Positions 37,033-59,609 of a DNA stretch of 64,000 bases are shown here, piece by piece. The stretch lies in assembly GCF_025639805.1 (NCBI RefSeq), contig NZ_CP106735.1, forward strand, positions 2,885,501 through 2,949,500. The letters are read 5' to 3'. Below the pieces are notes generated by a model that was given only the letters and a program-made list of their open reading frames with translations, ran no database searches and had not been told where the DNA came from. The translations under genes and the position numbers were made by a program. Position 1 is the stretch's first letter, and each line of letters opens with the position of its first letter. The DNA is from Reichenbachiella carrageenanivorans (lineage in GTDB: Bacteria > Bacteroidota > Bacteroidia > Cytophagales > Cyclobacteriaceae).

Positions 37033-37689
37033 TTAGTTTCCTTTGCTGTGATCCGCTAGAAACTGTGCTAGTCCGCTGTCAGTCAGTGGGTGTTTGAGTA
37101 GTCCTGTGATTACTTTGAGAGGGCAAGTGGCCACATCGGCACCTATTTCTGCGCAGTGAATCAAATGCATGTTGTGTCTCACAGAAGCAGCAAGTACTTC
37201 AGTTTGAAGTTCTGGGTAGTTGCCATAAATATGCACGATTTGTTCGATCAATTGCAAGCCATCTACAGAGATGTCATCCAATCGCCCGATGAATGGGGAT
37301 ACATATGAAGCTCCAGCTTTGGCTGCCAATAAGGCTTGTCCAGCATTGAAGATCAAAGTGCAATTGGTTCTGATACCTTCACTGCTCAATGCTTTGATCG
37401 TTTTGATGCCGTCTTTGATCATTGGTACTTTTACCACGATTTTGTCATCGATTTTTGCAAGCACGTGCGCTTCTTTCATCATCGTTTCGTAGTCAGTGGC
37501 AATTACTTCTGCACTTACGTTGTTGTCTACGATATCACAGATTTTTTTGTAATGCGCCAAGATGTTGTCCTGACCAGTGATGCCTTCTTTGGCCATCAAA
37601 GATGGGTTGGTTGTCACGCCATCCAATACGCCTAAGTCGTACGCTTCTTGAATTTCGTCAAGATTGGCCGTGTCGATGAAAAATTTCAT
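37033..37689 (-). CDS. fsa: Transaldolase / fructose-6-phosphate aldolase
   Basis: 218 aa, the short transaldolase type (fructose-6-phosphate aldolase or TalC-like). [28 protein letters not shown] is the N-terminal signature, cut here to its core [15 protein letters not shown] carries the Schiff-base lysine and [19 protein letters not shown] and [10 protein letters not shown] follow. The family acts on fructose-6-phosphate or in pentose-phosphate exchange; which reaction applies is not decided by sequence. First gene of the minus-strand cluster ending in the rhomboid gene. Confidence 0.92.
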
Positions 37690-37828: not shown

Positions 37829-37847
37829 TAGTAGCGGGAGCTAGACT
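37829..37847. repeat. attL: 19-bp direct repeat of the tRNA-fMet 3' end
   Basis: TAGTAGCGGGAGCTAGACT, identical to 47,447-47,465 inside the tRNA gene. Differing bases on both sides define the limits. It marks the left edge of the integrated element. Confidence 0.9.
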
Positions 37848-37905
37848 TTTTAATCATTTGAAAATCATTTGGTTACAATAAATTAATAACATAAATAGAG
37901 TAAAA

Positions 37906-38172
37906 ATGGAAGTATCAAAAACTAAAAAACAGCTTCAAATTCAGTCACTTGAAAAGCTAGACGAAATTCTTGATAATTATCAAGATCACTCTTTTTCACA
38001 ACGGTTTCTTGTTTTAAACAGGGTACTGTTAAATTCAATTGAGGATCAGACAATTTCAGACCGTGAAGCATTAAATCTTGCTTGGCTGTTAGAAGAACTG
38101 CATGCTTGTATGTCTTCGAGACTTAAGGAGAGAGCCCTTTGCTTTGATATGAAAATACCAAGAGAAGCATAG
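37906..38172 (+). CDS. Element-borne hypothetical protein, 88 aa
   Basis: Small soluble, helix-rich protein (LEKLDEILDNYQDHSF, SDREALNLAWLLEELHACM). It is the only plus-strand gene of the element and lies next to attL. No domain recognised. Confidence 0.5.
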   Translation: MEVSKTKKQLQIQSLEKLDEILDNYQDHSFSQRFLVLNRVLLNSIEDQTISDREALNLAWLLEELHACMSSRLKERALCFDMKIPREA

Positions 38173-38263
38173 TGATCTGATTGGCCATTGCCTCCCACAC
38201 AAAACAATATTCAAATAAATTTTACCAGTTAACCGATTACTAAATATAAGGTTTCTATCAAAA

Positions 38264-38608
38264 TTAAAGGCCTAAGTCTTCCATGATATCATCTATCTGA
38301 TCCATGACCAAACGAGCTGTTCCTATCTTTCTTTCAATGTCTCTAAAAAAGACTTCTTTGGGATTTTCACAATTAAAAAATGTATCCTTTTGTAGTCTCA
38401 TTTCCTTTCCTTCCTTAGAGTTGGCCTCTATCCTTAATCCTTTTACTTTCCCTGTTCTGTCTTTGCCATATCCAGCGAGAATAAGTCTTTCTTGATCACC
38501 ATCAACGCGATAAACAATGCTGTGGCGACATTTGGAATCAAAAGAGCCATCTGGATTTTCCCATGCTACCCAACAGAGAACTACATCACCAACTTGATAT
38601 CGTGCCAA
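38264..38608 (-). CDS. PemK/MazF-like protein
   Basis: 114 aa. YQVGDVVLCWVAW at the N-terminus and KCRHSIVYRV recall the SH3-like barrel of PemK/MazF toxins (GDVV...R-P-A-L-V). MRLQKDTFF and DIERKIGTARL near the end recall the C-terminal part of the same fold (cf. 'GL-kdS' and 'kkiG'). Its start directly abuts the stop of the upstream membrane-protein gene. No conventional antitoxin is adjacent, so toxin function is uncertain. Confidence 0.5.
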   Translation of the reverse strand: MARYQVGDVVLCWVAWENPDGSFDSKCRHSIVYRVDGDQERLILAGYGKDRTGKVKGLRIEANSKEGKEMRLQKDTFFNCENPKEVFFRDIERKIGTARLVMDQIDDIMEDLGL

Positions 38609-39160
38609 TTAGCAGTATAGTTTCTCGTAGATATCTAATTCTGGATCCCGCAGTTCTGGCATGTCCTCGAATGTTTTTGCAAGTCTCTCAAGGTCAAGCT
38701 GACTTGGTTTTTTCCCTAAGTCTGGGTAAATGTGTTTTTTGAGTTTTGATTCCATCTCATATACCAGGTGGTAAGTTGAGAATGCCTTATTTGCTAAGGG
38801 TCGAGATAAAAGAGTGGCTTTTGAAGGGTTGTAATTATTTTCTATTCTTCTTAAGAATAGAACCTTGTCTTCTAATAATAAATGGTAATCAATTAAAAAG
38901 TCTTCACTACAATTCACAATATCTCTGTCCAAATCCATAAATGCTTTTTTTACAATCCGGTGAGAGAAATATAACGCAATGTGTGCTATGAGCATCAAAG
39001 GCAATGTTATAGGTAACAGCATTATTTGTCCTACTATACCAAGCAAATAGTCTGCTACTTTATTAATAAACTCTATTGCTTGGGGTAGAAAATTTGTTAT
39101 TGGATTAAGACCGAAATTCGAATCCAATCCATTTGAATATGTGCTGTGAAGAGCGTTCAT
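38609..39160 (-). CDS. Element-borne membrane protein, 183 aa
   Basis: A hydrophobic segment with GIVGQIMLLPITLPLMLIAHIALYF (residues about 41-65) is probably one long or two short membrane helices. A helical, charged C-terminal region follows (about 100-183). The stop codon touches the ATG of the PemK/MazF-like gene, so both form one operon. No family recognised. Confidence 0.55.
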   Translation of the reverse strand: MNALHSTYSNGLDSNFGLNPITNFLPQAIEFINKVADYLLGIVGQIMLLPITLPLMLIAHIALYFSHRIVKKAFMDLDRDIVNCSEDFLIDYHLLLEDKVLFLRRIENNYNPSKATLLSRPLANKAFSTYHLVYEMESKLKKHIYPDLGKKPSQLDLERLAKTFEDMPELRDPELDIYEKLYC

Positions 39161-39261
39161 TTCAATTGTGTCTATTTCTGCTGCTGATTCAATACTAACG
39201 TAAAGTTAGGTAAAAAGTATGTTTTTTATCAAAATATTGAAAAACGCTTTGTGTTTTCTGA

Positions 39262-39294
39262 ATTCATGCATGGCCATCTACCTCACGCATGAAT
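39262..39294. promoter_or_regulatory. Inverted repeat upstream of the cargo operon
   Basis: Perfect 8-bp arms ATTCATGC and GCATGAAT separated by 17 bases, about 100 bp before the start at 39,160. Possible binding site for a repressor that controls the operon. Confidence 0.35.
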
Positions 39295-39412
39295 ACCTTA
39301 AATATACCTCAATTTTTCAATTAAATGTGGTTTTAAATTAGTCTTGTAGCGTGTGCCATAGTGTGTGCTTTATTTTGCCACGACCCACCACGCTCCAAAT
39401 TAGCAACAAAAA

Positions 39413-39436
39413 ATGGGGGCTGATTTCAGTCCCCAT
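39413..39436 (-). terminator. Terminator of the long leftward element operon
   Basis: On the minus strand ATGGGGACTGA pairs with TCAGCCCCCAT (one mismatch) and is followed by TTTTTTGTT. It lies just past the stop of the 257-aa gene. Confidence 0.7.
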
Positions 39437-39465
39437 CATTACAATATAAAATTACCAATCACTAA

Positions 39466-40239
39466 TTATTTTACTTCTATAGATTCTGATTTTCCTCCAC
39501 CCCGAATGGGATTCAGAGGAAATTTTTTTGTTTCTGAGTTATCTGGCATCACTCCCCATATCAGCGTGCCTGCTGCCAATAAACCAAGTACGCCAATAAA
39601 GATTTTGTTATTACTACCTGCGGTAAGTATGTTTCCTCCTGACCCCGACACGCTTACTGGCTTGTAGTTGTTGATTTGGGCGGCTTGTTGTTGAGCAATG
39701 ATTTGTTTTTGTTGAGCTTCAGCGATCTTTTTTGCTGCGGCTGCTTGGGATTTTTGCTGCTCTATCTGTTTTATTTTGATATCGGCTTCCACTTTTTGTG
39801 CTGCTTTGATATACTCATCCAGTTGTGCCTGATATTCCTTGCTTATAACTACGGCTGCATCGTAGTATTTTCCTCTAAAAACAGCCCATGGCCCGTCCAT
39901 TTTTTTCCATAATTCATTTTTGGAAAGTGCTTTTTCTAGTGTTTTAATTTTCAAATCCCTTAATTTGAATGGAGTTTGAGGAACTGTGATTTCAGCAATT
40001 TTTTCTAAAACACGTAACTCTTGTTCTACCTCTGTCGCTGCATTTTTTAGTTGTCTGGAATAATCTTCAACCTGTTCAATCTGCGCTGTTGTAGGATTAG
40101 GTTTGTTGCCTAATATTTTTCCTCCAATGGAAAGAATATTTACGCCAAGAGATATAGGGTCTAGACTACCTAACCCAGAAGAACCAGATAGCCCCCTTGT
40201 TTCTACGGAACTAATGTCCATCAATTCATTGTAGGTCAT
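39466..40239 (-). CDS. Element-borne coiled-coil protein with C-terminal membrane helix
   Basis: 257 aa, not recognised. Gly/Ser-rich N-terminus (GLSGSSGLGS), long coiled-coil helices (about 125-190, with QQKSQAAAAKKIAEAQQKQI), then a C-terminal hydrophobic helix (KIFIGVLGLLAAGTLIWGV) and a short tail. It starts 2 bp after the 323-aa gene ends. The layout resembles small membrane-anchored structural or lysis proteins of minor phages, but the resemblance is only topological. Confidence 0.55.
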   Translation of the reverse strand: MTYNELMDISSVETRGLSGSSGLGSLDPISLGVNILSIGGKILGNKPNPTTAQIEQVEDYSRQLKNAATEVEQELRVLEKIAEITVPQTPFKLRDLKIKTLEKALSKNELWKKMDGPWAVFRGKYYDAAVVISKEYQAQLDEYIKAAQKVEADIKIKQIEQQKSQAAAAKKIAEAQQKQIIAQQQAAQINNYKPVSVSGSGGNILTAGSNNKIFIGVLGLLAAGTLIWGVMPDNSETKKFPLNPIRGGGKSESIEVK

Positions 40240-40241
40240 AG

Positions 40242-41138
40242 CTAGTCGATTTGCTTTTCTGATCCAATTTTAGGCAGATTACACTTTTTTTCTTTCCAGA
40301 AACTTTCGTCAACTCGAATTTTTAGCTCAGTCAAATAATTCCTGATCTGATCGATTTTTTCAATGTCTTCTCCTAATTCATCCAGGTCTTCTTCTACAAG
40401 TGACTCGAGGGTCTCTTGAGCGGTCTCTAGCATGCCTTCCATTGTTTGAAGATCATCTATATCAACTTGTCTGCCATCAAACCCATTAAGCCCATTAAGA
40501 GTGCTTTGGATGGTGTCGGCTGCTAGCTCTTTTTCGAATTTACAATTGTCAAATTCTACATTCCTCAGGTCGTTGATTTCTAATGCCTGATCGAGTAGAT
40601 GGATTTTCGGACGTGCCCAATCAAAAACGAATGAATAACCTGGTCCAGATTCTTTAAGCTGTTCGAATTCATCTTGAAGAATACCTAGAATTTGAAAAAC
40701 GGAATTTGTTTCGGTAACATCATCATTAAATTCAAAATGCTCTTCAATACGCCCTTTTAAATCCTCTATTTTGGATGCAACTTTTTCAACCTCTTCGAAA
40801 TTCCATTTAGAACCCTCAACGTGCTCACGGATTCCTTCGCATAGATTTTGAAAATCTTTTATAAGGATCCTGTTGTCCTTCTCTTTTTGTACTGCTTCTT
40901 TTCGATCCAGACGCTCCAGTTCTTTTCTCTTGAGCTGATTGCTTTCGTGAATGGCACCAAGGGTAGAAGTGAAGGACTCTTCGTCTTCTTCAGTTATACC
41001 GGCTAGAGATAGACTTGCTTCGTGTTGTTCGATCCATCGTTTGACTGTGGCCTGTTTGACTTCGACGCTTTCTGCGATGTCTTCTAGTGAGTACCCTTCG
41101 TTATGCAGTTGTATGGCTTCTATAAATTCTGTTTTCAT
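40242..41138 (-). CDS. Element-borne HTH plus coiled-coil protein
   Basis: About 298 aa from the ATG at 41,138. The first 40 residues contain a helix-turn-helix (EGYSLEDIAESVEVKQATVKRW). The rest is acidic and coiled-coil-rich. An upstream ATG would add 25 residues that look like leader. Sits directly before the 257-aa gene. Not recognised; could be a transcription regulator that also assembles through its coiled coil. Confidence 0.55.
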   Translation of the reverse strand: MKTEFIEAIQLHNEGYSLEDIAESVEVKQATVKRWIEQHEASLSLAGITEEDEESFTSTLGAIHESNQLKRKELERLDRKEAVQKEKDNRILIKDFQNLCEGIREHVEGSKWNFEEVEKVASKIEDLKGRIEEHFEFNDDVTETNSVFQILGILQDEFEQLKESGPGYSFVFDWARPKIHLLDQALEINDLRNVEFDNCKFEKELAADTIQSTLNGLNGFDGRQVDIDDLQTMEGMLETAQETLESLVEEDLDELGEDIEKIDQIRNYLTELKIRVDESFWKEKKCNLPKIGSEKQID

Positions 41139-41250
41139 GATATTGTTGTTTGAATTTGCAATACTTAACGAATCTTTATAGCTGGGGCTACAAGACTTGG
41201 CCGCTTGCCGCACTTTTCCGTAGTTTACCTGCTGATAAAGTTTAAATAAA

Positions 41251-41478
41251 TCATTCTTGCCGTATTCGAGGCCAGCCTAGTACGTCAAAAACCATTTCTA
41301 CTTGCCTTAGAGTAAGTAGCTTAACGTTTCCTAAGTTTTTTTTCAGTTTTGGGTATCGACCTATCATATCACGCAATGATCTAGGGGAAACATCATATAG
41401 TTCTGCCAGATCCGCTTTGAAGTATGGTTTTAATTGGACACGGGTGCTATCGGTTCGTTCGTTGTTCTTCGATGGCAT
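41251..41478 (-). CDS. Small HTH protein of the element, 75 aa
   Basis: Basic protein with a MerR/excisionase-like helix-turn-helix: FKADLAELYDVSPRSLRDMI and QVEMVFDVLG. Lies 6 bp after the 88-aa gene. Probably DNA-binding. Confidence 0.6.
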   Translation of the reverse strand: MPSKNNERTDSTRVQLKPYFKADLAELYDVSPRSLRDMIGRYPKLKKNLGNVKLLTLRQVEMVFDVLGWPRIRQE

Positions 41479-41484
41479 GAGTTC

Positions 41485-41751
41485 TTAGTATTTATTTTGG
41501 TTTGAATCCTCTAAAAATTTAATTGGTTGATCGATGGCTTGTTTTCCATCGGGGTTTGACAATTTTTTCTTCGTCCAGTTGAAAGCATAGTCTTTCCATT
41601 CGTCTGGGGTTTTTTCCAAATCAGACCTGAAGGATTTAGGGAAGTCGGAGAGTTTGCGTTTGATAGCTCCCTCGGAGGCATTAGTAGCCGAAATTAGATC
41701 TTTGATTAATTGTTCATTTTCAAGAATATCAATCTTAATCTCTGTGTACAT
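41485..41751 (-). CDS. Small gene after the replication gene, copy 1 (possible frameshift extension)
   Basis: 88 aa, starts MYTEIKIDILENEQ and ends EDSNQNKY. The frame is open upstream without a stop as far as the A11 run in the replication gene, so it can also be read as the C-terminal part of a fused protein after a -1 shift. The conserved KTPDEWKDYAFNW motif suggests a real folded domain. Function unknown. Confidence 0.55.
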   Translation of the reverse strand: MYTEIKIDILENEQLIKDLISATNASEGAIKRKLSDFPKSFRSDLEKTPDEWKDYAFNWTKKKLSNPDGKQAIDQPIKFLEDSNQNKY

Positions 41752-41786
41752 ATACTTTCCTTTCCTATCCTTTACTTTACTATCCT

Positions 41787-42260
41787 TTACTTTACTGGCT
41801 TGGGCAGTGGTATGAGCAGCGTTCTTAGCGTTGGTTGAAGGGGTGGTTGAAGCACTGCTTGAATTAGGTTTAATTTTGTTTTTTTTTTTCTACTCTCAGC
41901 GGATTTTAAACCTCCTTCTTTACCATGGCGAGATTGCATTTCTCTATAATCTTGTATCCCCTCCATATCTGCTTTAAGATCATGATGATAAAACTGATTC
42001 TCATCCAAGACAAAAATCTCGTATTTAGTTATAATTGATTTGCAAACTCTAATATCGATAGCATTGCGTTTGCACCATGCATTAATTTGCGCCAGAGTCA
42101 AAGAGAAACTTTTTTGCTTTGCTAATAATTCAAGCACTGCCATGAAAATACCATAACCTTCCCATCCGTGCTTTTCCATCATTTGTATGATGTTCATGCT
42201 TTCTAACATGTTCAGATGATGTTTGAAGTAGTAGGTGTGTAGTTTGGTAGCGTCAGACAT
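41787..42260 (-). CDS. Replication-initiator-like protein (DUF4373/Lin1244-type N-terminal domain), copy 1
   Basis: 157 aa from ATG 42,260, preceded by GGAGGG. The N-terminus with LHTYYFKHHLNML, MEKHGWEGYGIFMAVLELLAKQ and RVCKSIITKYEIF resembles the Lin1244/Lin1753 (DUF4373) phage replication domain. After SRHGKEGGLKSAESRKKK an A11 run occurs and the frame ends 35 codons later in LLIPLPKPVK. A -1 shift at that run would continue through a Ser/Thr/Lys linker into the 88-aa gene, which is the type of tail this family usually has. Confidence 0.7.
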   Translation of the reverse strand: MSDATKLHTYYFKHHLNMLESMNIIQMMEKHGWEGYGIFMAVLELLAKQKSFSLTLAQINAWCKRNAIDIRVCKSIITKYEIFVLDENQFYHHDLKADMEGIQDYREMQSRHGKEGGLKSAESRKKKTKLNLIQAVLQPPLQPTLRTLLIPLPKPVK

Positions 42261-42315
42261 ATTGCCCCCCCTCCAATGGTTCAGATATAAAAGATGCGTG
42301 GAAGTGGGTGTGCTT

Positions 42316-42337
42316 GCGTGCATAGAAAAGTGCACGC
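42316..42337. repeat. Hairpin 1 in the spacer before the dnaB-like gene
   Basis: Perfect arms GCGTGCA (42,316-42,322) and TGCACGC (42,331-42,337). Nearly identical copy at 44,856-44,877. Together with a second hairpin it may form part of a replication origin or a regulator site. Confidence 0.45.
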
Positions 42338-42390
42338 ATACCGTAAAAGTGTCTAAAATTGCTTAAATTAGCCATAATTGTTTTGTGATG

Positions 42391-42413
42391 GCGTGGTACT
42401 GGTAATACCACGC
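42391..42413. repeat. Hairpin 2 in the same spacer
   Basis: Perfect 8-bp arms GCGTGGTA and TACCACGC separated by 7 bases. Identical copy at 44,931-44,953. GC-rich arms in an AT-rich region make chance less likely. Confidence 0.45.
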
Positions 42414-42455
42414 ATAAGAAATCATAAAAGTGGAAAGTCGCCTATTTGGGCGGCT

Positions 42456-44027
42456 TTATTTGTTGGTAGGGGTCTTTAGGAATCGTTCGATTGACTCTCT
42501 CGTGATGTAGGCTCTTCGATCTCGTTTCACTCGATCCAGGCGGGCATCATTTATGAGTTGATGTATTTTGGTTTTCCCGAAATTGGTATCTGTGATAGGA
42601 AAATTAGGCTGATCTGGTAGCTCTTGCACGGCCATAGGTTCCTTTTGGACATGATGCCAGTCGCCTGATTGATCTTGCCATTTGGTGTATTGTCCTAAGA
42701 ACTGTAGCCAGGCACTGCCTAGTCGTCCGTTTCTGTTTTTGGCAATGATTACCTCTCCTATTCCAGCGGTGGGGTATCCTTCCTCTGTTTCCATGATCTC
42801 GTAATATTCTGGGCGGTAGAGAAACATAACCTTATCCGCATCTTGCTCGATTGATCCAGACTCTCTGAGGTCTGATAGCTGTGGGCGTTTGTTTCCCCCG
42901 CGTGTTTCTACTGCGCGGCTGAGTTGAGATAGTGCTATTACGGGTATGTCTAGCTCTTTAGCAATGTTTTTAAGCCCTCTTGATATACTGGCTATTTCTT
43001 GCTCTCTATTGCCTCCTTGGTTTCCTTCTCCGAGTTGCATATAGTCTACGATCAGTAGTTTGATGTCGTGTTTTTTCTTGAGCATCCTGGCTTTGGTACG
43101 CATTTGGAATATTGATAGAGCTGCACTGTCGTCTACATAGATGGGCTTGTCTATCATGTTGCCAGATTTATGAAGTATTCGTTCTAGTTCGTATTCTTTT
43201 ATGTTTCCGTTTCTCAAGCTCTCTAGCATGACTTCACTGTGCATGGCTATCATGCGTATGCCTATCTCTGTCCAGCTCATTTCTAATGAAAACATACCTA
43301 CTGCCTGCCCAAACTCTGCGCAATTTTTCATAATACTGGCTACCATCGCGGACTTACCCATGGCGGGTCGTGCAGCTATGATGATGAGTTCTGAACTTCT
43401 AAAACCGCCTGTGATTCGGTCTAGTTCGGATAGTCCACACGGTACACCTATCACTTCATTGTTTAGATAGGCTTCTCGCGAGGCTTCTATTTGATCTACT
43501 AGAGATTTTACTACTTTTTTAGACCCCATGTCTACGTATGAGGAACTAGACAGCGTGGCCGATAGCTTGTATAGCTGCTGGTCTGTCCGCTCAATTAAAT
43601 CAAATACGTCTTCTGTTTCATTGTAGGCCAGATTCACTATCTCCGATCCTAATTTTATTAAAGCGCGTTTGAGTGCCTGCTCTTTTATGATTTTAGAATG
43701 TGCATCTATATTGGCAGCGCTATTTACTCGAGTAGTAAGTGATACTACTGCGTGTGCGCCGCCTACAGTTTCTATATTTCCGTCTTCTCTGAGCTGTGCT
43801 ACTACGGTCATTATATCCACTGGTTCACTTTTCCCAAAGAGTGTAAGTATGGCCTTGAATATTAGTCCGTGTGCGGGGCTGTAGAAGTCTTCTGCTTCGA
43901 GAAAACCTACCACGTGGTTGATGCTATCTTTTTCTAACATCATCGCTCCTAGTACTACTTGTTCCATATCTAGGTTTTGCGGTGGTACCTTTCCCAAAAG
44001 TTCGGTGTTATTGTTTTGCTTGGTCAT
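42456..44027 (-). CDS. DnaB-type replicative helicase fused to a C-terminal helix-turn-helix
   Basis: 523 aa. Residues 1-480 match DnaB: N-domain (VLGAMMLEKDSINHVVGFLEA), linker, Walker A ARPAMGKSAMV, and the LSRAVETRGGNKRPQLSDLRESGSIEQDAD region typical of DnaB, cut here to motif cores. The sequence is close to the chromosomal DnaB at 58,029. From about residue 478 the protein changes to TNFGKTKIHQLINDARL and ends RRAYITRESIERFLKT, the same HTH tail as the small gene at 44,996. A recombination fusion is likely. The 3' part lies in the direct repeat. Confidence 0.88.
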   Translation of the reverse strand: MTKQNNNTELLGKVPPQNLDMEQVVLGAMMLEKDSINHVVGFLEAEDFYSPAHGLIFKAILTLFGKSEPVDIMTVVAQLREDGNIETVGGAHAVVSLTTRVNSAANIDAHSKIIKEQALKRALIKLGSEIVNLAYNETEDVFDLIERTDQQLYKLSATLSSSSYVDMGSKKVVKSLVDQIEASREAYLNNEVIGVPCGLSELDRITGGFRSSELIIIAARPAMGKSAMVASIMKNCAEFGQAVGMFSLEMSWTEIGIRMIAMHSEVMLESLRNGNIKEYELERILHKSGNMIDKPIYVDDSAALSIFQMRTKARMLKKKHDIKLLIVDYMQLGEGNQGGNREQEIASISRGLKNIAKELDIPVIALSQLSRAVETRGGNKRPQLSDLRESGSIEQDADKVMFLYRPEYYEIMETEEGYPTAGIGEVIIAKNRNGRLGSAWLQFLGQYTKWQDQSGDWHHVQKEPMAVQELPDQPNFPITDTNFGKTKIHQLINDARLDRVKRDRRAYITRESIERFLKTPTNK

Positions 44028-44030
44028 TTT

Positions 44031-44291
44031 TTATTTTGGTTTGAATCCTCTGAAAAATTTAATTGGTTGATCGATGGCTTGTTTTCCATCGGGGTTTGAC
44101 AATTTTTTCTTCGTCCAGTTGAAAGCATAGTCTTTCCATTCGTCTGGGGTTTTTTCCAAATCAGACCTGAAGGATTTAGGGAAGTCGGAGAGTTTGCGTT
44201 TGATAGCTCCCTCGGAGGCATTAGTAGCCGAAATTAGATCTTTGATTAATTGTTCATTTTCAAGAATATCAATCTTAATCTCTGTGTACAT
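44031..44291 (-). CDS. Small gene after the replication gene, copy 2 (altered 3' end)
   Basis: 86 aa. Identical to copy 1 up to residue about 78; the extra G then changes the tail to FFRGFKPK and the frame stops at 44,031, three bases before the dnaB ATG. As in copy 1, it is readable as an extension of the preceding replication gene after a -1 shift. Confidence 0.5.
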   Translation of the reverse strand: MYTEIKIDILENEQLIKDLISATNASEGAIKRKLSDFPKSFRSDLEKTPDEWKDYAFNWTKKKLSNPDGKQAIDQPIKFFRGFKPK

Positions 44292-44326
44292 ATACTTTCC
44301 TTTCCTATCCTTTACTTTACTATCCT

Positions 44327-44800
44327 TTACTTTACTGGCTTGGGCAGTGGTATGAGCAGCGTTCTTAGCGTTGGTTGAAGGGGTGGTTGAAGCACTGCTT
44401 GAATTAGGTTTAATTTTGTTTTTTTTTTTCTACTCTCAGCGGATTTTAAACCTCCTTCTTTACCATGGCGAGATTGCATTTCTCTATAATCTTGTATCCC
44501 CTCCATATCTGCTTTAAGATCATGATGATAAAACTGATTCTCATCCAAGACAAAAATCTCGTATTTAGTTATAATTGATTTGCAAACTCTAATATCGATA
44601 GCATTGCGTTTGCACCATGCATTAATTTGCGCCAGAGTCAAAGAGAAACTTTTTTGCTTTGCTAATAATTCAAGCACTGCCATGAAAATACCATAACCTT
44701 CCCATCCGTGCTTTTCCATCATTTGTATGATGTTCATGCTTTCTAACATGTTCAGATGATGTTTGAAGTAGTAGGTGTGTAGTTTGGTAGCGTCAGACAT
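44327..44800 (-). CDS. Replication-initiator-like protein (DUF4373-type), copy 2
   Basis: Protein identical in sequence to copy 1, with the same A11 run at 44,419-44,429 (plus-strand T11) and the same ribosome site. Keeping two intact copies of the same gene about 2.5 kb apart suggests recent duplication. Confidence 0.7.
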   Translation of the reverse strand: MSDATKLHTYYFKHHLNMLESMNIIQMMEKHGWEGYGIFMAVLELLAKQKSFSLTLAQINAWCKRNAIDIRVCKSIITKYEIFVLDENQFYHHDLKADMEGIQDYREMQSRHGKEGGLKSAESRKKKTKLNLIQAVLQPPLQPTLRTLLIPLPKPVK

Positions 44801-44995
44801 ATTGCCCCCCCTCCAATGGTTCAGATATAAAAGATGCGTGGAAGTGGGTGTGCTTGCGTGCATAGAAAAGTGCACGCATACCGTAAAAGTGTCTAAAATT
44901 GCTTAAATTAGCCATAATTGTTTTGTGATGGCGTGGTACTGGTAATACCACGCATAAGAAATCATAAAAGTGGAAAGTCGCCTATTTGGGCGGCT

Positions 44996-45277
44996 TTATT
45001 TGTTGGTAGGGGTCTTTAGGAATCGTTCGATTGACTCTCTCGTGATGTAGGCTCTTCGATCTCGTTTCACTCGATCTAGGCGGGTTTCGTTGATGAGTTT
45101 GTGGATTTTAGTCCTTCCAAAATTTAGAATACTACATGTCTCTTTGATACTTAAGTATTCTTTTTGAAGAACATTATTCTCTCGAAGAATCAAATGCTTT
45201 ATTTCTGCTATATCAGATTTCATGAGTTGAATCTCTTGATAAGCCTCTTTGGGAATTGCTATTAATGTATGTTCCAT
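44996..45277 (-). CDS. Excisionase-like small HTH protein
   Basis: 93 aa from ATG 45,277. YLSIKETCSILNFGRTKIHKLIN is a MerR-type winged HTH as in Xis/excisionase proteins (LSIKETCS plus TRESIERFL). Located between integrase-side genes and the replication gene, consistent with directional control of excision. The last ~26 codons lie in the direct repeat and are shared with the dnaB tail. Confidence 0.75.
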   Translation of the reverse strand: MEHTLIAIPKEAYQEIQLMKSDIAEIKHLILRENNVLQKEYLSIKETCSILNFGRTKIHKLINETRLDRVKRDRRAYITRESIERFLKTPTNK

Positions 45278-45328
45278 TTTCTCTGCTTTAATTTTACAAA
45301 GCAAGAGTAACGTTCAGTGTTGTTTGGA

Positions 45329-45384
45329 TGCAAGAAAAAGTTGTGTTTGCAAGTCTCTTGCAATGTTTATAAATGTTTTGCAAG
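45329..45384. promoter_or_regulatory. TTGCAAG operator cluster before the excisionase-like gene
   Basis: TTGCAAG-TCT-CTTGCAA (45,347-45,363) is a perfect dyad with 7-bp arms. Half-sites TGCAAG at 45,329 and TTTGCAAG at 45,377 flank it. The cluster sits 50-100 bp upstream of the excisionase-like ATG, where an element repressor or excisionase would bind. Confidence 0.5.
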
Positions 45385-45387
45385 GAA

Positions 45388-46098
45388 TTATTTTTTATAG
45401 CGCCAAGAATTGAAGACTTCCTTTAAATAATCTTGAAGATCTGGGTCAAGATTTCCTTTTTTTGGAATTTTGTTCCTTAACCCTGCTTCATTGATGAACC
45501 TATTATAGGTATCATAGCTGGTGTTTAAAACCTGGTTAGCAAAATCTTTTCTTTTTAGCGGGACAGGCTTTTTTTCGTTCTCTATGTGTTTCAGAGCTTC
45601 ATTTATTTTCCAAATATCTATCTGTTTTGCATCGAGAATTTCTAAATAATGCAAAAGCCATTTTTGTGCCTTTTCATTAAATCTATAAAAGTCACCTAAA
45701 TCTTTAAAAAGGTTTGGGTTAAGCAGTTGATCTTCTGGAGTGTATTCATCAACATTGAAGTAGGTTTTTATAATTTCTATTAAGTAATTGTTTTGATAGG
45801 ATGATGTAAGTAATTCTAAATTGGGGATTATGTCCTCAACACGAAAAAATCTTTTTCCTGTTTCTTCAATAGATATTTGATCATAAAAAAGTGGACGTCC
45901 TTGTGAGAAAATATAATTTATCTTTCTTAATGCCTGAAGCCATTCAATGGCTTCATTATGGACGAAGGTTCGGGTTATGACTTTCATTACATCTAGTTGA
46001 AAGTCTTCATATATATTATCAAAATATTCGCTTTTATAGAAACCAATTTTTTTATTTCTTTCAATATCTTCTTTTATACCTATTATCTTTTTGTTCAT
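45388..46098 (-). CDS. Element-borne hypothetical protein coupled to the integrase
   Basis: About 236 aa, charged and helical, no family recognised (ends LQDYLKEVFNSWRYKK). Its ATG at 46,098 overlaps the integrase stop in the ATGA arrangement, so translation is coupled. DYDLLNPNL-like central segments and a C-terminal HTH-like TYNRFINEAGLRNK are seen. Perhaps an integration accessory or regulator. Confidence 0.6.
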   Translation of the reverse strand: MNKKIIGIKEDIERNKKIGFYKSEYFDNIYEDFQLDVMKVITRTFVHNEAIEWLQALRKINYIFSQGRPLFYDQISIEETGKRFFRVEDIIPNLELLTSSYQNNYLIEIIKTYFNVDEYTPEDQLLNPNLFKDLGDFYRFNEKAQKWLLHYLEILDAKQIDIWKINEALKHIENEKKPVPLKRKDFANQVLNTSYDTYNRFINEAGLRNKIPKKGNLDPDLQDYLKEVFNSWRYKK

Positions 46099-47315
46099 AA
46101 TTTTAAATCTATCCATCCACGCATGGCATTCGCTTTGCTCTGACGACCGTAGATCTCAGTTGTCGATGTTTTTTGATGACCGAGAGCTCTACCTACCTTT
46201 TTTATGGGTACCCCAAGTGATACCATCATTTCTGTAAAACTGTGTCGTGCGACTTTTGCACTTATTTCTTTATCTATTTCCAACTGACTCGCAATTGACT
46301 TTAGTTTTAAGTTGAATTTTTGATCAGAGATGAGCTCCTTGAACAATAGTATTTTACTTGGTTTCTTATCCTTATTCCAGGAGGAAAAACGATCTAGAAT
46401 CTTTTGAGTGTCTGGAAAGATTGGAATAACGAATTCTTCATCATTCTTAGACCTGTGTCCTGCTATATACCTAACTGATTCTTCATTGTCTTCAAGTTTT
46501 ATTTCTTCAATATTGGCGTGAGTAAGGTTTCGAATGTCCGAATAGTATAGCCCGGTCAGACAGCCAAAGAGAAATATGTTTTTGAAAAATTCATCTCTGG
46601 GATCAGGCAATGTAGTGTCTCGTAAAGCGCGAAGCTCAGCCTGGGTGAGTGATACCCTACGACTCTTTTCTTGTTTAATTTTAAGATCATCAAACATCAA
46701 TTTCACATCCAATTTCACCAGACCTTCTTTTAAAGCTGCTCTATAGCATATTTTGAACTTATCAAAATGTTTGACACGTGTAACACCACGTAGTTTGCAA
46801 TCCACGGCAAGAAAGCGCTCAAATTCGTAAATAAATGTAGGTGTGAGGTCGTCAAATCGAATGTCTGGTCTAAACTCATTGAGCCTTACTTCAAAACTCC
46901 TGTATGTCTGTACAGTGAGTGGTGAAAGTTTTTCTTCGTCACTTTTGCGCTTATTGATATGACGAATGTATCTATCAATAAATTCGTTGAAAGTTTCATT
47001 GGTTTTGGATAGCTGAAGATGTTCCTTGATTTCTTTTACAGTTAATGGATGTCCCATTAAGATTCTATCCTGAACCCAGTCTCTTGTATGGAAAAGAATA
47101 TCTCGGATGATACGGTTGATTTCGGGCTTTAACACATACAAGTCTTGATGTGTGTCTCCAATCCAATCCCGTTTGTGAATAGGAGGGACTATGTCGAGCA
47201 GTGCATAATCTGTTTTTCCTTTGTGATATATTCGTAGATATACAGGGGATAGCCCTGATTTGGACTTGTAATTAAGTCTGTTGTGTACAACTGATATGGA
47301 AGGATATTTTTTCAA
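46095..47315 (-). CDS. int: Tyrosine recombinase (integrase) of the element
   Basis: 406 aa. The N-terminus with arm-binding region (VHNRLNYKSKSGLSPVYLRI) and SAM-like core domain are typical of Bacteroidota phage integrases. C-terminal catalytic motifs: VARHSFTEMMVSLG with Arg-His, LGHQKTSTTEIYGR with the His and the nucleophile Tyr. The position of the first Arg is GLYYSDIR, without the usual arginine, as reported for IntDOT-type recombinases. The start is TTG at 47,315. It lies 132 bp from the tRNA 3' end, the expected place for an integrase. Confidence 0.88.
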   Translation of the reverse strand: MKKYPSISVVHNRLNYKSKSGLSPVYLRIYHKGKTDYALLDIVPPIHKRDWIGDTHQDLYVLKPEINRIIRDILFHTRDWVQDRILMGHPLTVKEIKEHLQLSKTNETFNEFIDRYIRHINKRKSDEEKLSPLTVQTYRSFEVRLNEFRPDIRFDDLTPTFIYEFERFLAVDCKLRGVTRVKHFDKFKICYRAALKEGLVKLDVKLMFDDLKIKQEKSRRVSLTQAELRALRDTTLPDPRDEFFKNIFLFGCLTGLYYSDIRNLTHANIEEIKLEDNEESVRYIAGHRSKNDEEFVIPIFPDTQKILDRFSSWNKDKKPSKILLFKELISDQKFNLKLKSIASQLEIDKEISAKVARHSFTEMMVSLGVPIKKVGRALGHQKTSTTEIYGRQSKANAMRGWIDLKL

Positions 47316-47385
47316 TGCACTTTTTTATTAATAATAAAATTAATAACAAAAATGCGAATTTCCACGTATATTAGTGAACAATAAA

Positions 47386-47422
47386 AAACCCTAAAGCTCT
47401 AATGTATAGTGCTTTAGGGTTT
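47386..47422 (-). terminator. Terminator supplied by the element downstream of tRNA-fMet
   Basis: On the minus strand AAACCCTAAAGC and GCTTTAGGGTTT form a 12-bp stem, followed by TTTTTTATTG. It stands 28 bases past the tRNA 3' end and would replace the native terminator that is now at the other end of the element. Confidence 0.8.
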
Positions 47423-47449
47423 GGTGAGATTCGTTAAAATCCTCTCTAG

Positions 47450-47522
<73 letters not shown>

Positions 47523-58028: not shown

Positions 58029-59609
58029 ATGGCCAATATAGATTCTCCAGATCAAGGAAATGTCAGAAGTAAAGCAGGTGCTAGAAAGAGCAACTCGTCC
58101 AAAGCGGGTTTAGTACCACTGGGGAAATTGCAGCCTCAGGCTGTAGATATAGAGGAGACGGTGCTAGGTGCATTGATGTTAGAAAAAGATGCTTTGACCA
58201 CAGTCATTGATATTCTCAAGCCACAAAGTTTCTACGATGATCGACATGCCAAAATATATGAAGCTATTGTTCAGCTTTTTAATAAGTCAGAACCAGTAGA
58301 TATCATGACTGTTACGGCTCAATTGCGTAAGAATGGCACGTTGGAGATGGCAGGAGGAGCTTATCATATTGCTAACCTGACGACAAGAGTCAACTCAGCA
58401 GCTAATATAGAATATCACGCCAGAATCATCACTGAGCAGGCGATCAAAAGAGATTTGATTAGAATCTCGGCTAAGATTCAAGAAGATGCATTTGAGGATA
58501 CAGAGGATGTATTTGAGCTATTGGATAGGACAGAACAGGCCTTGTTTGAGATTTCGGAATCCAATATAAAAAAGAATTATGCTGGAATGCAGCAGTTGAT
58601 GCATGAGGCTATTATGGAAATAGAAGCCAGAAAAGAGCATAAAGATGGTTTGACTGGTGTACCTAGTGGTTTTACAGAGCTCGACCGGGTGACTGCAGGG
58701 TGGCAACCTTCGGATTTGGTGATTATAGCAGCCCGTCCTGCCATGGGTAAGACGGCCTTTGTCGTCTCGGCTATGAGAAATGCAGCAGTGGATTTTGGCG
58801 AGGGAGTAGCTATTTTCTCTTTGGAGATGTCTGCTATTCAGTTGGTCAATAGACTTATTTCTGCAGAAGCAGAATTGGAGAGTGATAAAATCAAGAAAGG
58901 TAACCTGGCAGATCACGAGTGGGAGCAGCTGGTTCACAAAACAGCCAGACTCACAGAAGCCCCCATATTTATAGATGATACGCCAGGTTTGAGTATTCTT
59001 GAATTGCGAGCGAAGTGTAGACGACTAAAGGCTCAGCATGACATCAAGATGATTATTATTGATTACTTGCAACTGATGTCTGGTGATTCTTCGAAAGCGG
59101 GTGGTGGTCCTGGAAATAGGGAGCAGGAAATTGCTTCTATATCAAGAGCACTTAAAGGAATAGCAAAAGAATTGAATGTGCCAGTGATCGCACTGTCACA
59201 GCTTAGTAGAGCCGTAGAAACCAGAGGTGGAGATAAGCGTCCTCAGTTGTCGGATTTGAGGGAGTCAGGATCTATCGAGCAGGATGCTGATATGGTAATG
59301 TTCCTTTATCGCCCAGAGTATTATGATATCACAGAGGATGAGGATGGTTTGCCTACAGCAGGTACTGGAGAAGTGATCATAGCTAAGCACAGGAATGGCT
59401 CGCTAGAAAATGTAAAATTGAAGTTTATTGGTCGATTCACCAAGTTTGCAGATCTGGATGGGTCTATCATGGGCGGGGATTATAGCGGAGGAGGATTCCC
59501 TTCTGCAGGTATTCCAGCGGAGTTTGATAGCGTACCTAATACCGTAACATTCCCTTCCAAAGCCAATGATGGAGATGGTGCTGCGTCTTCGGGAGATGCT
59601 CCTTTTTAA
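58029..59609 (+). CDS. dnaB: Replicative DNA helicase DnaB (chromosomal)
   Basis: 526 aa. N-terminal domain begins VLGALMLEKDALTT, Walker A ARPAMGKTAFV, DnaB signature SIEQDADMVMFLYRPEYY and LSQLSRAVETRGG. It unwinds the replication fork. The C-terminal tail (Gly/Ser-rich, ends SSGDAPF) differs from the element copy at 42,456, which has an HTH instead. Confidence 0.96.
   Translation: MANIDSPDQGNVRSKAGARKSNSSKAGLVPLGKLQPQAVDIEETVLGALMLEKDALTTVIDILKPQSFYDDRHAKIYEAIVQLFNKSEPVDIMTVTAQLRKNGTLEMAGGAYHIANLTTRVNSAANIEYHARIITEQAIKRDLIRISAKIQEDAFEDTEDVFELLDRTEQALFEISESNIKKNYAGMQQLMHEAIMEIEARKEHKDGLTGVPSGFTELDRVTAGWQPSDLVIIAARPAMGKTAFVVSAMRNAAVDFGEGVAIFSLEMSAIQLVNRLISAEAELESDKIKKGNLADHEWEQLVHKTARLTEAPIFIDDTPGLSILELRAKCRRLKAQHDIKMIIIDYLQLMSGDSSKAGGGPGNREQEIASISRALKGIAKELNVPVIALSQLSRAVETRGGDKRPQLSDLRESGSIEQDADMVMFLYRPEYYDITEDEDGLPTAGTGEVIIAKHRNGSLENVKLKFIGRFTKFADLDGSIMGGDYSGGGFPSAGIPAEFDSVPNTVTFPSKANDGDGAASSGDAPF

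Follow-up and report, generated by a model that had tools for sequence, protein, structure and literature searches.

What kind of mobile DNA occupies the tRNA-fMet gene of Reichenbachiella carrageenanivorans, and by what route might it travel? Within the 64,000-nucleotide stretch analyzed here (the window, positions 2,885,501-2,949,500 of a single-contig 4.81-Mb genome), a 9,618-bp element sits between two 19-bp repeats of the 3' end of that tRNA. Judged by its sequence, the element is most safely described as a site-specific island that encodes replication genes of its own; one half of it resembles the satellites known as phage-inducible chromosomal minimalist islands (PICMIs) while the other half appears to be undescribed. 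We read it tentatively, at somewhat less than an even chance, as a satellite-like, integrative and self-replicating hitch-hiker that depends on a helper. Seen directly, and underlying this reading, are the insertion at tRNA-fMet, an open recombinase gene, an HTH_17 regulator, an initiator-like protein together with a DnaB belonging to the element, and a relationship to islands whose replication genes differ and several of which carry defense cargo.

Insertion at a tRNA gene

The boundaries of the element and its target are as follows.

37829-37847: distal attachment (att) repeat, a 19-bp copy of the tRNA-fMet 3' end; a hairpin lies to its left, outside the element
47386-47422: element-borne hairpin after the occupied tRNA
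47447-47465: att repeat overlapping the tRNA-fMet 3' end; the tRNA is intact
47449-47522, minus strand: tRNA-fMet, the target

An earlier, sequence-only reading of this DNA had described 19-bp direct repeats derived from the tRNA end, and these are indeed perfect: the two copies are identical, the match extends no further on either side, and their spacing is 9,618 bp. The target tRNA-Met(CAT) is intact, and its unpaired 1:72 position and three anticodon-stem G-C pairs lead us to take it as the initiator type. The element has a lower G+C content (0.379) than its flanks (0.411 and 0.412), is 87% coding and carries 13 of its 14 counted genes on the minus strand.

That the repeats mark an insertion rather than a chance repetition is indicated by seven genomes of the same genus, since in all of them the joined flanks and the tRNA are present without a match to the element genes compared. 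The joined chromosomal flanks match tRNA-fMet and Era in 7/7, with matches that begin between query bases 261 and 271, the repeat occupying query 270-288; ARAGORN finds the tRNA in each, and by eye a hairpin stands close behind every tRNA end. None of the 44 open reading frames (ORFs) in these loci, which extend 1.5 kb beyond the tRNA end, matches the element's integrase, HTH_17 or 298-aa protein (best E 0.07). The seven whole genomes likewise contain no match to the 298-aa or the 242-aa protein, both described below.

A transaldolase gene (37033-37689) adjoins the left end of the element, yet it does not lie beside tRNA-fMet in the seven sister genomes. It was dropped as a marker of the empty site, and the joined flanks were used instead. 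A rearrangement near the insertion site appears to have occurred in one lineage or another. Separately, locus L098 (genome G005) has two tandem copies of the tRNA-fMet 3' end with its hairpin on the reverse strand (at about 1386 and 1513), one of them degenerate; this doubled end is possibly a trace left by a previous insertion there.

Gene content

The genes for integration, replication and the recurring pair discussed below run from the right end of the element toward the left.

46095-47315, minus strand: tyrosine recombinase (NF040815, 64.7 bits, below the equivalog cut-off of 220)
45388-46116, minus strand: 242-aa protein without a family match; its gene and that of the integrase overlap by 22 bp
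44996-45304, minus strand: HTH_17 excisionase/AlpA-type regulator (PF12728, 36.1 bits, cut-off 27)
44327-44803, minus strand: Lin1244/Lin1753-type protein, copy 1, its DNA the same as that of copy 2
44031-44291, minus strand: 88-aa protein, copy 1 (86 aa here)
42456-44027, minus strand: full-length DnaB-type helicase, 523 aa (DnaB_C, 313 bits)
41787-42263, minus strand: Lin1244/Lin1753-type replication-initiator-like protein, copy 2 (N-terminal domain, 28.9 bits, cut-off 25)
41485-41751, minus strand: 88-aa protein, copy 2
41251-41478, minus strand: 75-aa DUF4248-like protein (19.5 bits, under the cut-off of 27)
40242-41138, minus strand: 298-aa helix-turn-helix (HTH)-coil protein, the family marker
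39466-40239, minus strand: 257-aa protein whose C-terminal hydrophobic segment starts at residue 213; its gene immediately follows that of the HTH-coil protein

Proteins were scanned against Pfam (ten window proteins), NCBIfam, PHROGs and PADLOC; the integrase was scanned in NCBIfam only, the 242-aa protein was not in the Pfam scan nor the HTH_17 protein in that of PHROGs, and both 88-aa proteins were left out of NCBIfam. The recombinase reading frame is open and contains YSDIR, ARHSF, LGH and IY, which we take to be tyrosine recombinase motifs. Together with the NCBIfam matches, these agree with the tyrosine recombinase that the sequence-only reading had placed at the right end, and its excisionase-like, DUF4373-like and DnaB genes correspond to the HTH_17, Lin1244/Lin1753 N-terminal and DnaB_C matches. 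Its statement that no capsid or transfer genes are recognizable likewise stands, as the general family scans gave no match to capsid, portal or relaxase families among the scanned window proteins; terminase subunits give weak matches, which fall on the HTH.

Such an element might be an immobile, decayed remnant kept for its cargo. Consistent with this, no close copy occurs in the genomes searched: the next-best relative of the 298-aa protein is 39% identical among 295 genomes of the family, the 242-aa protein matches its own genome only, and the 257-aa protein has one doubtful match in 390 genomes. With all 14 counted genes open, the high coding density, the perfect att repeats and the recombinase motifs in place, however, decay is quite improbable.

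Related islands and their ends

Ten related loci were found from the 298-aa protein, five by single-sequence search, four by profile and one by way of a neighboring protein. The single-sequence search gave matches in 6/295 family genomes, the own genome counted, with the nearest relative in G563, of the same family as the host. A six-row profile (A2) matched 24/390 genomes of the order at E<=1e-4, of which six were accepted on the span of the match and its reading frame (G269, G058, G052, G076, G291 and the own genome); the other 18, whose matches cover the HTH alone, in short frames or with stops, were dropped as likely HTHs of transposases or regulators. The profile of a downstream protein, A8, matched 2/160 genomes, G698 and G052 itself, and the neighbor of the G698 match fits the HTH-coil profile at 88.8 bits.

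The window integrase matches a recombinase in six of the ten loci (L023, L024, L057, L058, L060 and L079; 456 ORFs), the best match per locus ranging from E 3e-44 to 7e-7. Recombinase-like genes in L021, L025 and L059 were read by eye and are unmatched by the window integrase at E 0.01; in the G563 contig no recombinase was seen. Of the relatives that have a tRNA alongside, seven were tested, and six of these show repeats of a tRNA end, at 14-46 bp, delimiting elements of about 17-28 kb.

L021 (G495): repeat 46 bp, element 27.7 kb, tRNA-Arg
L060 (G291): repeat 22 bp, element 19.2 kb, tRNA-Asp
L058 (G052): repeat 18 bp, element 17.5 kb, tRNA-Asp
L023 (G269): repeat 18 bp, element 18.1 kb, tRNA-Arg
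L024 (G577): repeat 15 bp, element 24.9 kb, tRNA-Arg
L079 (G698): repeat 14 bp, element 21.9 kb, tRNA-Asp

The cases with 14- and 15-bp repeats are the weakest. In L059 (G076), beside a tRNA-Ala, there is no tRNA-end repeat within the contig, which ends; L020 (G563), L025 (G493) and L057 (G058) have no tRNA in the stretch and lie outside this comparison. Because the adjacent tRNA differs (fMet, Arg and Asp, with Ala beside one), tRNA-fMet is no trait of the family. With flanking repeats present in these related insertions, and with recombinases and replication genes among the relatives, the suggested family of replicating integrative elements gains support at the level of sequence.

Two further observations concern the interiors of these islands. 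Inside the presumed ends of the G577 element, L064:10424-14665 contains DnaE-like and DinB-like genes, identified by eye; if they are not cargo, they point to a misplaced 15-bp end. Two of the tRNA-Asp elements have a second tyrosine recombinase-like gene (L058:4959-6245 and L060:12838-14115); both copies match the window integrase, and that of L058 has PF13102 and PF00589.

A recurring pair behind variable replication genes

The order integrase, HTH_17 gene, replication genes, HTH-coil gene is found in the window, L023, L024, L058 and L060, read partly by eye; the window HTH_17 protein itself matches L023 and L024, and the HTH_17 genes of the other loci were read by eye. L079 has the same order without a clear HTH_17 gene, L057 has integrase, HTH_17 and HTH-coil genes with no replication gene noticed by eye, and L020 was left out of this count. 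The replication genes vary, as follows, with DUF3987 at 115 and 157 bits in the two relatives that have it.

Window: Lin1244-type and DnaB
L023: DnaB N-domain and DUF3987
L024: DUF3987 and DUF6371
L058: VapE-type and RepB primase
L079: VapE-type and toprim primase

A C-terminally hydrophobic protein directly follows the HTH-coil gene in six of the ten loci examined for this neighbor (window, L020, L021, L023, L024 and L079; L025, whose contig ends, was left out), the hydrophobic stretch of L079 scoring just 1.55. Such a protein comes second after the HTH-coil gene in L059, whereas the next gene in L058 encodes a protein with a domain of the transglycosylase type (28.6 bits, cut-off 21.3), L060 has a doubtful 60-aa frame and L057 has no C-terminally hydrophobic protein. 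As the 257-aa protein resembles the membrane proteins of the other loci weakly (E 0.26-0.32 among 846 ORFs), its pairing with them rests on position and layout. DUF4248-like genes stand beside the HTH-coil gene, with a profile score, below cut-off, from the window alone. In L023, L058 and L060, members of one protein family stand between the integrase and HTH_17 genes, and L021 has a member elsewhere (E 4e-11 to 9e-3 among 19 proteins compared); the window 242-aa protein occupies the same place and overlaps the integrase gene, yet has no detectable relation to this family. Two of the membrane proteins, L023:10319-10711 and L024:9723-10112, weakly match phrog_6529 (E 0.0015 and 0.0009).

Neither the HTH-coil nor the membrane protein is random cargo, and the HTH-coil protein is the marker that the islands share. 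The sequence-only reading had counted the HTH, coiled-coil and membrane genes as cargo, a view that is not upheld, the HTH-coil gene being common to the related loci.

The HTH-coil protein and a possible role in partition

The predicted model of the 298-aa protein (ma6d32cd594d4; three sequences; predicted local distance difference test score 76.7, predicted template modeling score 0.56) is all-alpha save for two short strands, with an HTH, a 56-residue helix and then more helices; the L079 protein has its helical part in two copies. A small terminase subunit that redirects helper packaging is characteristic of PICI satellites. The 298-aa protein matches Terminase_5 at 21.6 bits (cut-off 20.3) and, in PHROGs, small terminases at E 0.0068 and 0.013 and a large subunit at 0.0053, and the L020 homologue matches a small terminase at E 0.00026. 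These terminase matches appear not to rise above HTH similarity; many unrelated HTH families score equal or better. Among 45 matches listed to solved structures, the HTH-coil profile finds RppC (an entry named redirecting phage packaging protein; E 0.0026) and RacA (E 0.078); many of the 45 are transposases, resolvases or regulators, and the matches are HTH-led. Model and matches together fit a DNA-binding adaptor and make no choice between partition and packaging.

The element could be imagined as an integrative plasmid with a partition or tethering module, in which the HTH-coil protein would bind the circle in the manner of ParB or RacA and the C-tail-anchored protein would tie it to the membrane, with transfer passive or rare. 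Its own DnaB and initiator-like protein suit such a plasmid, as do the adjoining HTH and hydrophobic-tail genes of six of the ten loci and the best solved-structure match of the profile, which is P1 ParB (E 3.3e-6), RacA ranking lower. The ParB match, however, is mostly HTH, no ParA-type ATPase match was found among the scanned window proteins, the transglycosylase domain in L058 is odd for partition, and L057 has the HTH-coil gene where no replication gene was noticed. We regard this explanation as unlikely, though it is the leading rival.

A 1,024-bp repeat around dnaB

The replication region contains a feature absent from the sequence-only reading, a long direct repeat flanking dnaB.

44053-45076: 1,024-bp direct repeat, copy 1
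41513-42536: 1,024-bp direct repeat, copy 2
42264-42455: non-coding spacer with two short hairpins, a second version of which lies in copy 1

All 1,024 bp are identical, with 22 bp more past a 1-bp indel. Each copy comprises the initiator-like gene, almost the whole 88-aa gene, the hairpin-bearing spacer and the end of an HTH_17 frame. The initiator-like and 88-aa genes are therefore doubled, one set on each side of dnaB, and DnaB has an excisionase-like tail, its last 44 aa being 86% identical to the HTH_17 protein; just beyond the repeat the two frames are still similar but differ. The spacer may possibly be the origin region. The simplest account would be that two related elements, one of them carrying dnaB, recombined, after which either little time has passed or the copies have been homogenized; dnaB was probably gained by such recombination with a related element, and the 1-kb repeats could let it be lost again in the same way. 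The alternative is that the repeat is an assembly error.

As to the source of dnaB, the element DnaB has matches at E<=1e-100 in 272/290 family genomes. Among the matches listed, its identity to chromosomal-type DnaBs is 51-57%, whereas the phage record ranked first reaches 43.8% and none of the 1,385 phage records reaches 60%; a phage DnaB was rejected as its simple source on these grounds. The window holds a second dnaB, of chromosomal type (58116-59462), 55% identical to that of the element.

Cargo and defense genes

The remaining genes of the element lie at its left end.

37906-38172, plus strand: 88-aa protein, the sole plus-strand gene counted (weak PADLOC match, E 0.006)
38264-38608, minus strand: 114-aa protein in cargo position; no family above noise
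38609-39160, minus strand: 183-aa protein with a hydrophobic segment, in cargo position

None of this window cargo (the 183-aa membrane-type, 114-aa and 88-aa proteins) has a convincing family in the four scans. The related islands carry recognizable defense genes: inside its repeats L024 has a complete QatABCD (PADLOC) and AbiH, and L060 a KAP-type NTPase (21.0 bits, cut-off 20); L057, whose element ends are not placed, has a Septu-like PDC-M62A/B pair after the HTH-coil gene; and type I restriction genes were seen by eye in L021 (inside the repeats) and L079. A HATPase protein of L023 has no PADLOC match.

Comparison with known systems

PICMIs have a core of int, an HTH_17-type AlpA, a DUF3987/DUF5906 primase and a gene overlapping int; they integrate at fis, average 6.7 kb, and complete ones are reported only in Vibrio (PMC10803314). 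The present element shares with them a tyrosine integrase, an int-overlapping gene, an HTH_17 regulator, a replication gene and the lack of recognized capsid-remodeling genes, and the related loci L023 and L024 carry the DUF3987-type primase. It differs in lying at tRNA-fMet rather than fis, in a host outside the Vibrionaceae, in adding the HTH-coil/membrane pair and in having relatives of 17-28 kb. By its sequence it resembles PICMI satellites but is no PICMI. The suggestion that it matches no class holds in part: the HTH-coil/membrane half has no convincing match here, and the integration/replication half is PICMI-like.

P4-like satellites likewise have an integrase, an HTH regulator and their own replication, and they have a defense hotspot (PMC8628076); psu, delta and the alpha primase-helicase (PF07455, PF04606, PF03288) have no match in the ten element proteins, and a further P4 marker, sid, is covered by a custom profile in place of a Pfam family. 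Charybdis elements, which are described as archaeal, some 4.6 kb long and lacking hallmark genes (PMC12324425), can be set beside the element by description alone.

A different kind of dependence is represented by integrative mobilizable elements that have no relaxase and carry only an origin of transfer, oriT (iOriT; PMC11389934). Like these, the window element is integrated, has its own recombinase and would need a helper; it might carry only a putative oriT and borrow the relaxase of a resident conjugative element. The existence of that class and the lack of a recognized relaxase in the scanned proteins agree with this, but the conserved HTH-coil module, with the recurring membrane and transglycosylase genes, is left unaccounted for, and the explanation is rather improbable.

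The single-stranded DNA membrane phages FLiP and phiCjT23 (MF361639; PMC9719478) share with the element Bacteroidota hosts, a similar genome size and small C-tail membrane proteins, and a lytic enzyme occurs in FLiP as in the relative L058. They suggest that the HTH-coil, C-tail membrane and transglycosylase genes might form a self-encoded membrane particle or DNA-delivery device, the element being a minimal capsid-less virus or a FLiP-like derivative. Itself aside, the L020 membrane protein matches FLiP structural gp9 best, and the reverse also holds (E 4e-4 and 2e-4, 846 ORFs), and the putative lytic enzyme of FLiP is structural. Yet the L020-gp9 alignment consists of two short segments only, and the gp9 query misses the window 257-aa protein at E 5 (reverse E 0.28, 16-protein set). 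FLiP gp8/gp15 (double jelly-roll capsid protein and rolling-circle Rep) reach at most 2 bits against six window proteins by sequence, and a FLiP-type prophage was rejected on that ground; phiCjT23-like prophages are reported to integrate at dif, in contrast to the tyrosine recombinase and tRNA site used here. L058, L059 and L079 have one further domain in common, for which FLiP gp11 was tried as a relative and rejected when the resemblance failed. There is little likelihood of such a particle. Delivery through vesicles or minimal membrane particles by the HTH-coil protein, the C-tail-anchored protein and, in some members, the transglycosylase, without capsid protein or helper, is very improbable.

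How the element may move

If the element is instead a helper-dependent satellite, the integrase would excise it as a circle with the aid of the HTH_17 protein and, perhaps, of the 242-aa protein whose gene overlaps int. The initiator-like protein would then open an origin in the vicinity of 42264-42455, or of the second copy of that segment, and load the element DnaB, so that the circle could replicate. In what is the least certain part of this scheme, the HTH-coil protein may bind the element DNA and, with the membrane protein of the next gene, carry it to a site of export or packaging, most likely into the particles of a helper phage. Of the putative routes we prefer packaging, in view of the parallel with PICMIs, the defense cargo of the relatives and the lack of a recognized relaxase.

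Several observations weigh against this satellite interpretation. The PICMI-defining DUF3987/DUF5906 primase is missing from the ten window proteins scanned, DnaB and the initiator-like protein standing in its place (PMC10803314), and the better solved-structure match of the HTH-coil profile is to P1 ParB. Gene order also varies, with the recombinase-like gene lying across from the HTH-coil gene in L021 and L059 and directly before it in L025. No helper phage is known for the element, and the host genome was not searched for one. In IMG/VR, scans that detect close relatives only found no relative of four window proteins and three from related loci, nor was the excised junction found there as an exact pattern; the 257-aa, 298-aa, L024 membrane and L058 transglycosylase proteins have no relative in 50,697 phage records. 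These negative searches are a mild argument against frequent packaging.

Implications for Cytophagales

Described satellite families come mostly from Enterobacterales, vibrios and Bacillota. In the open-license literature, outside of which most subscription papers lie, no description of such elements in Cytophagales was found among the matches listed. Should delivery by vesicles prove true, these elements would be a bacterial counterpart of capsid-less membrane viruses, carrying defense genes. More broadly, islands that differ in their replication genes while keeping the HTH-coil and membrane pair may offer a handle on how defense islands move in Cytophagales, with the pair itself as the obvious target for deletion.

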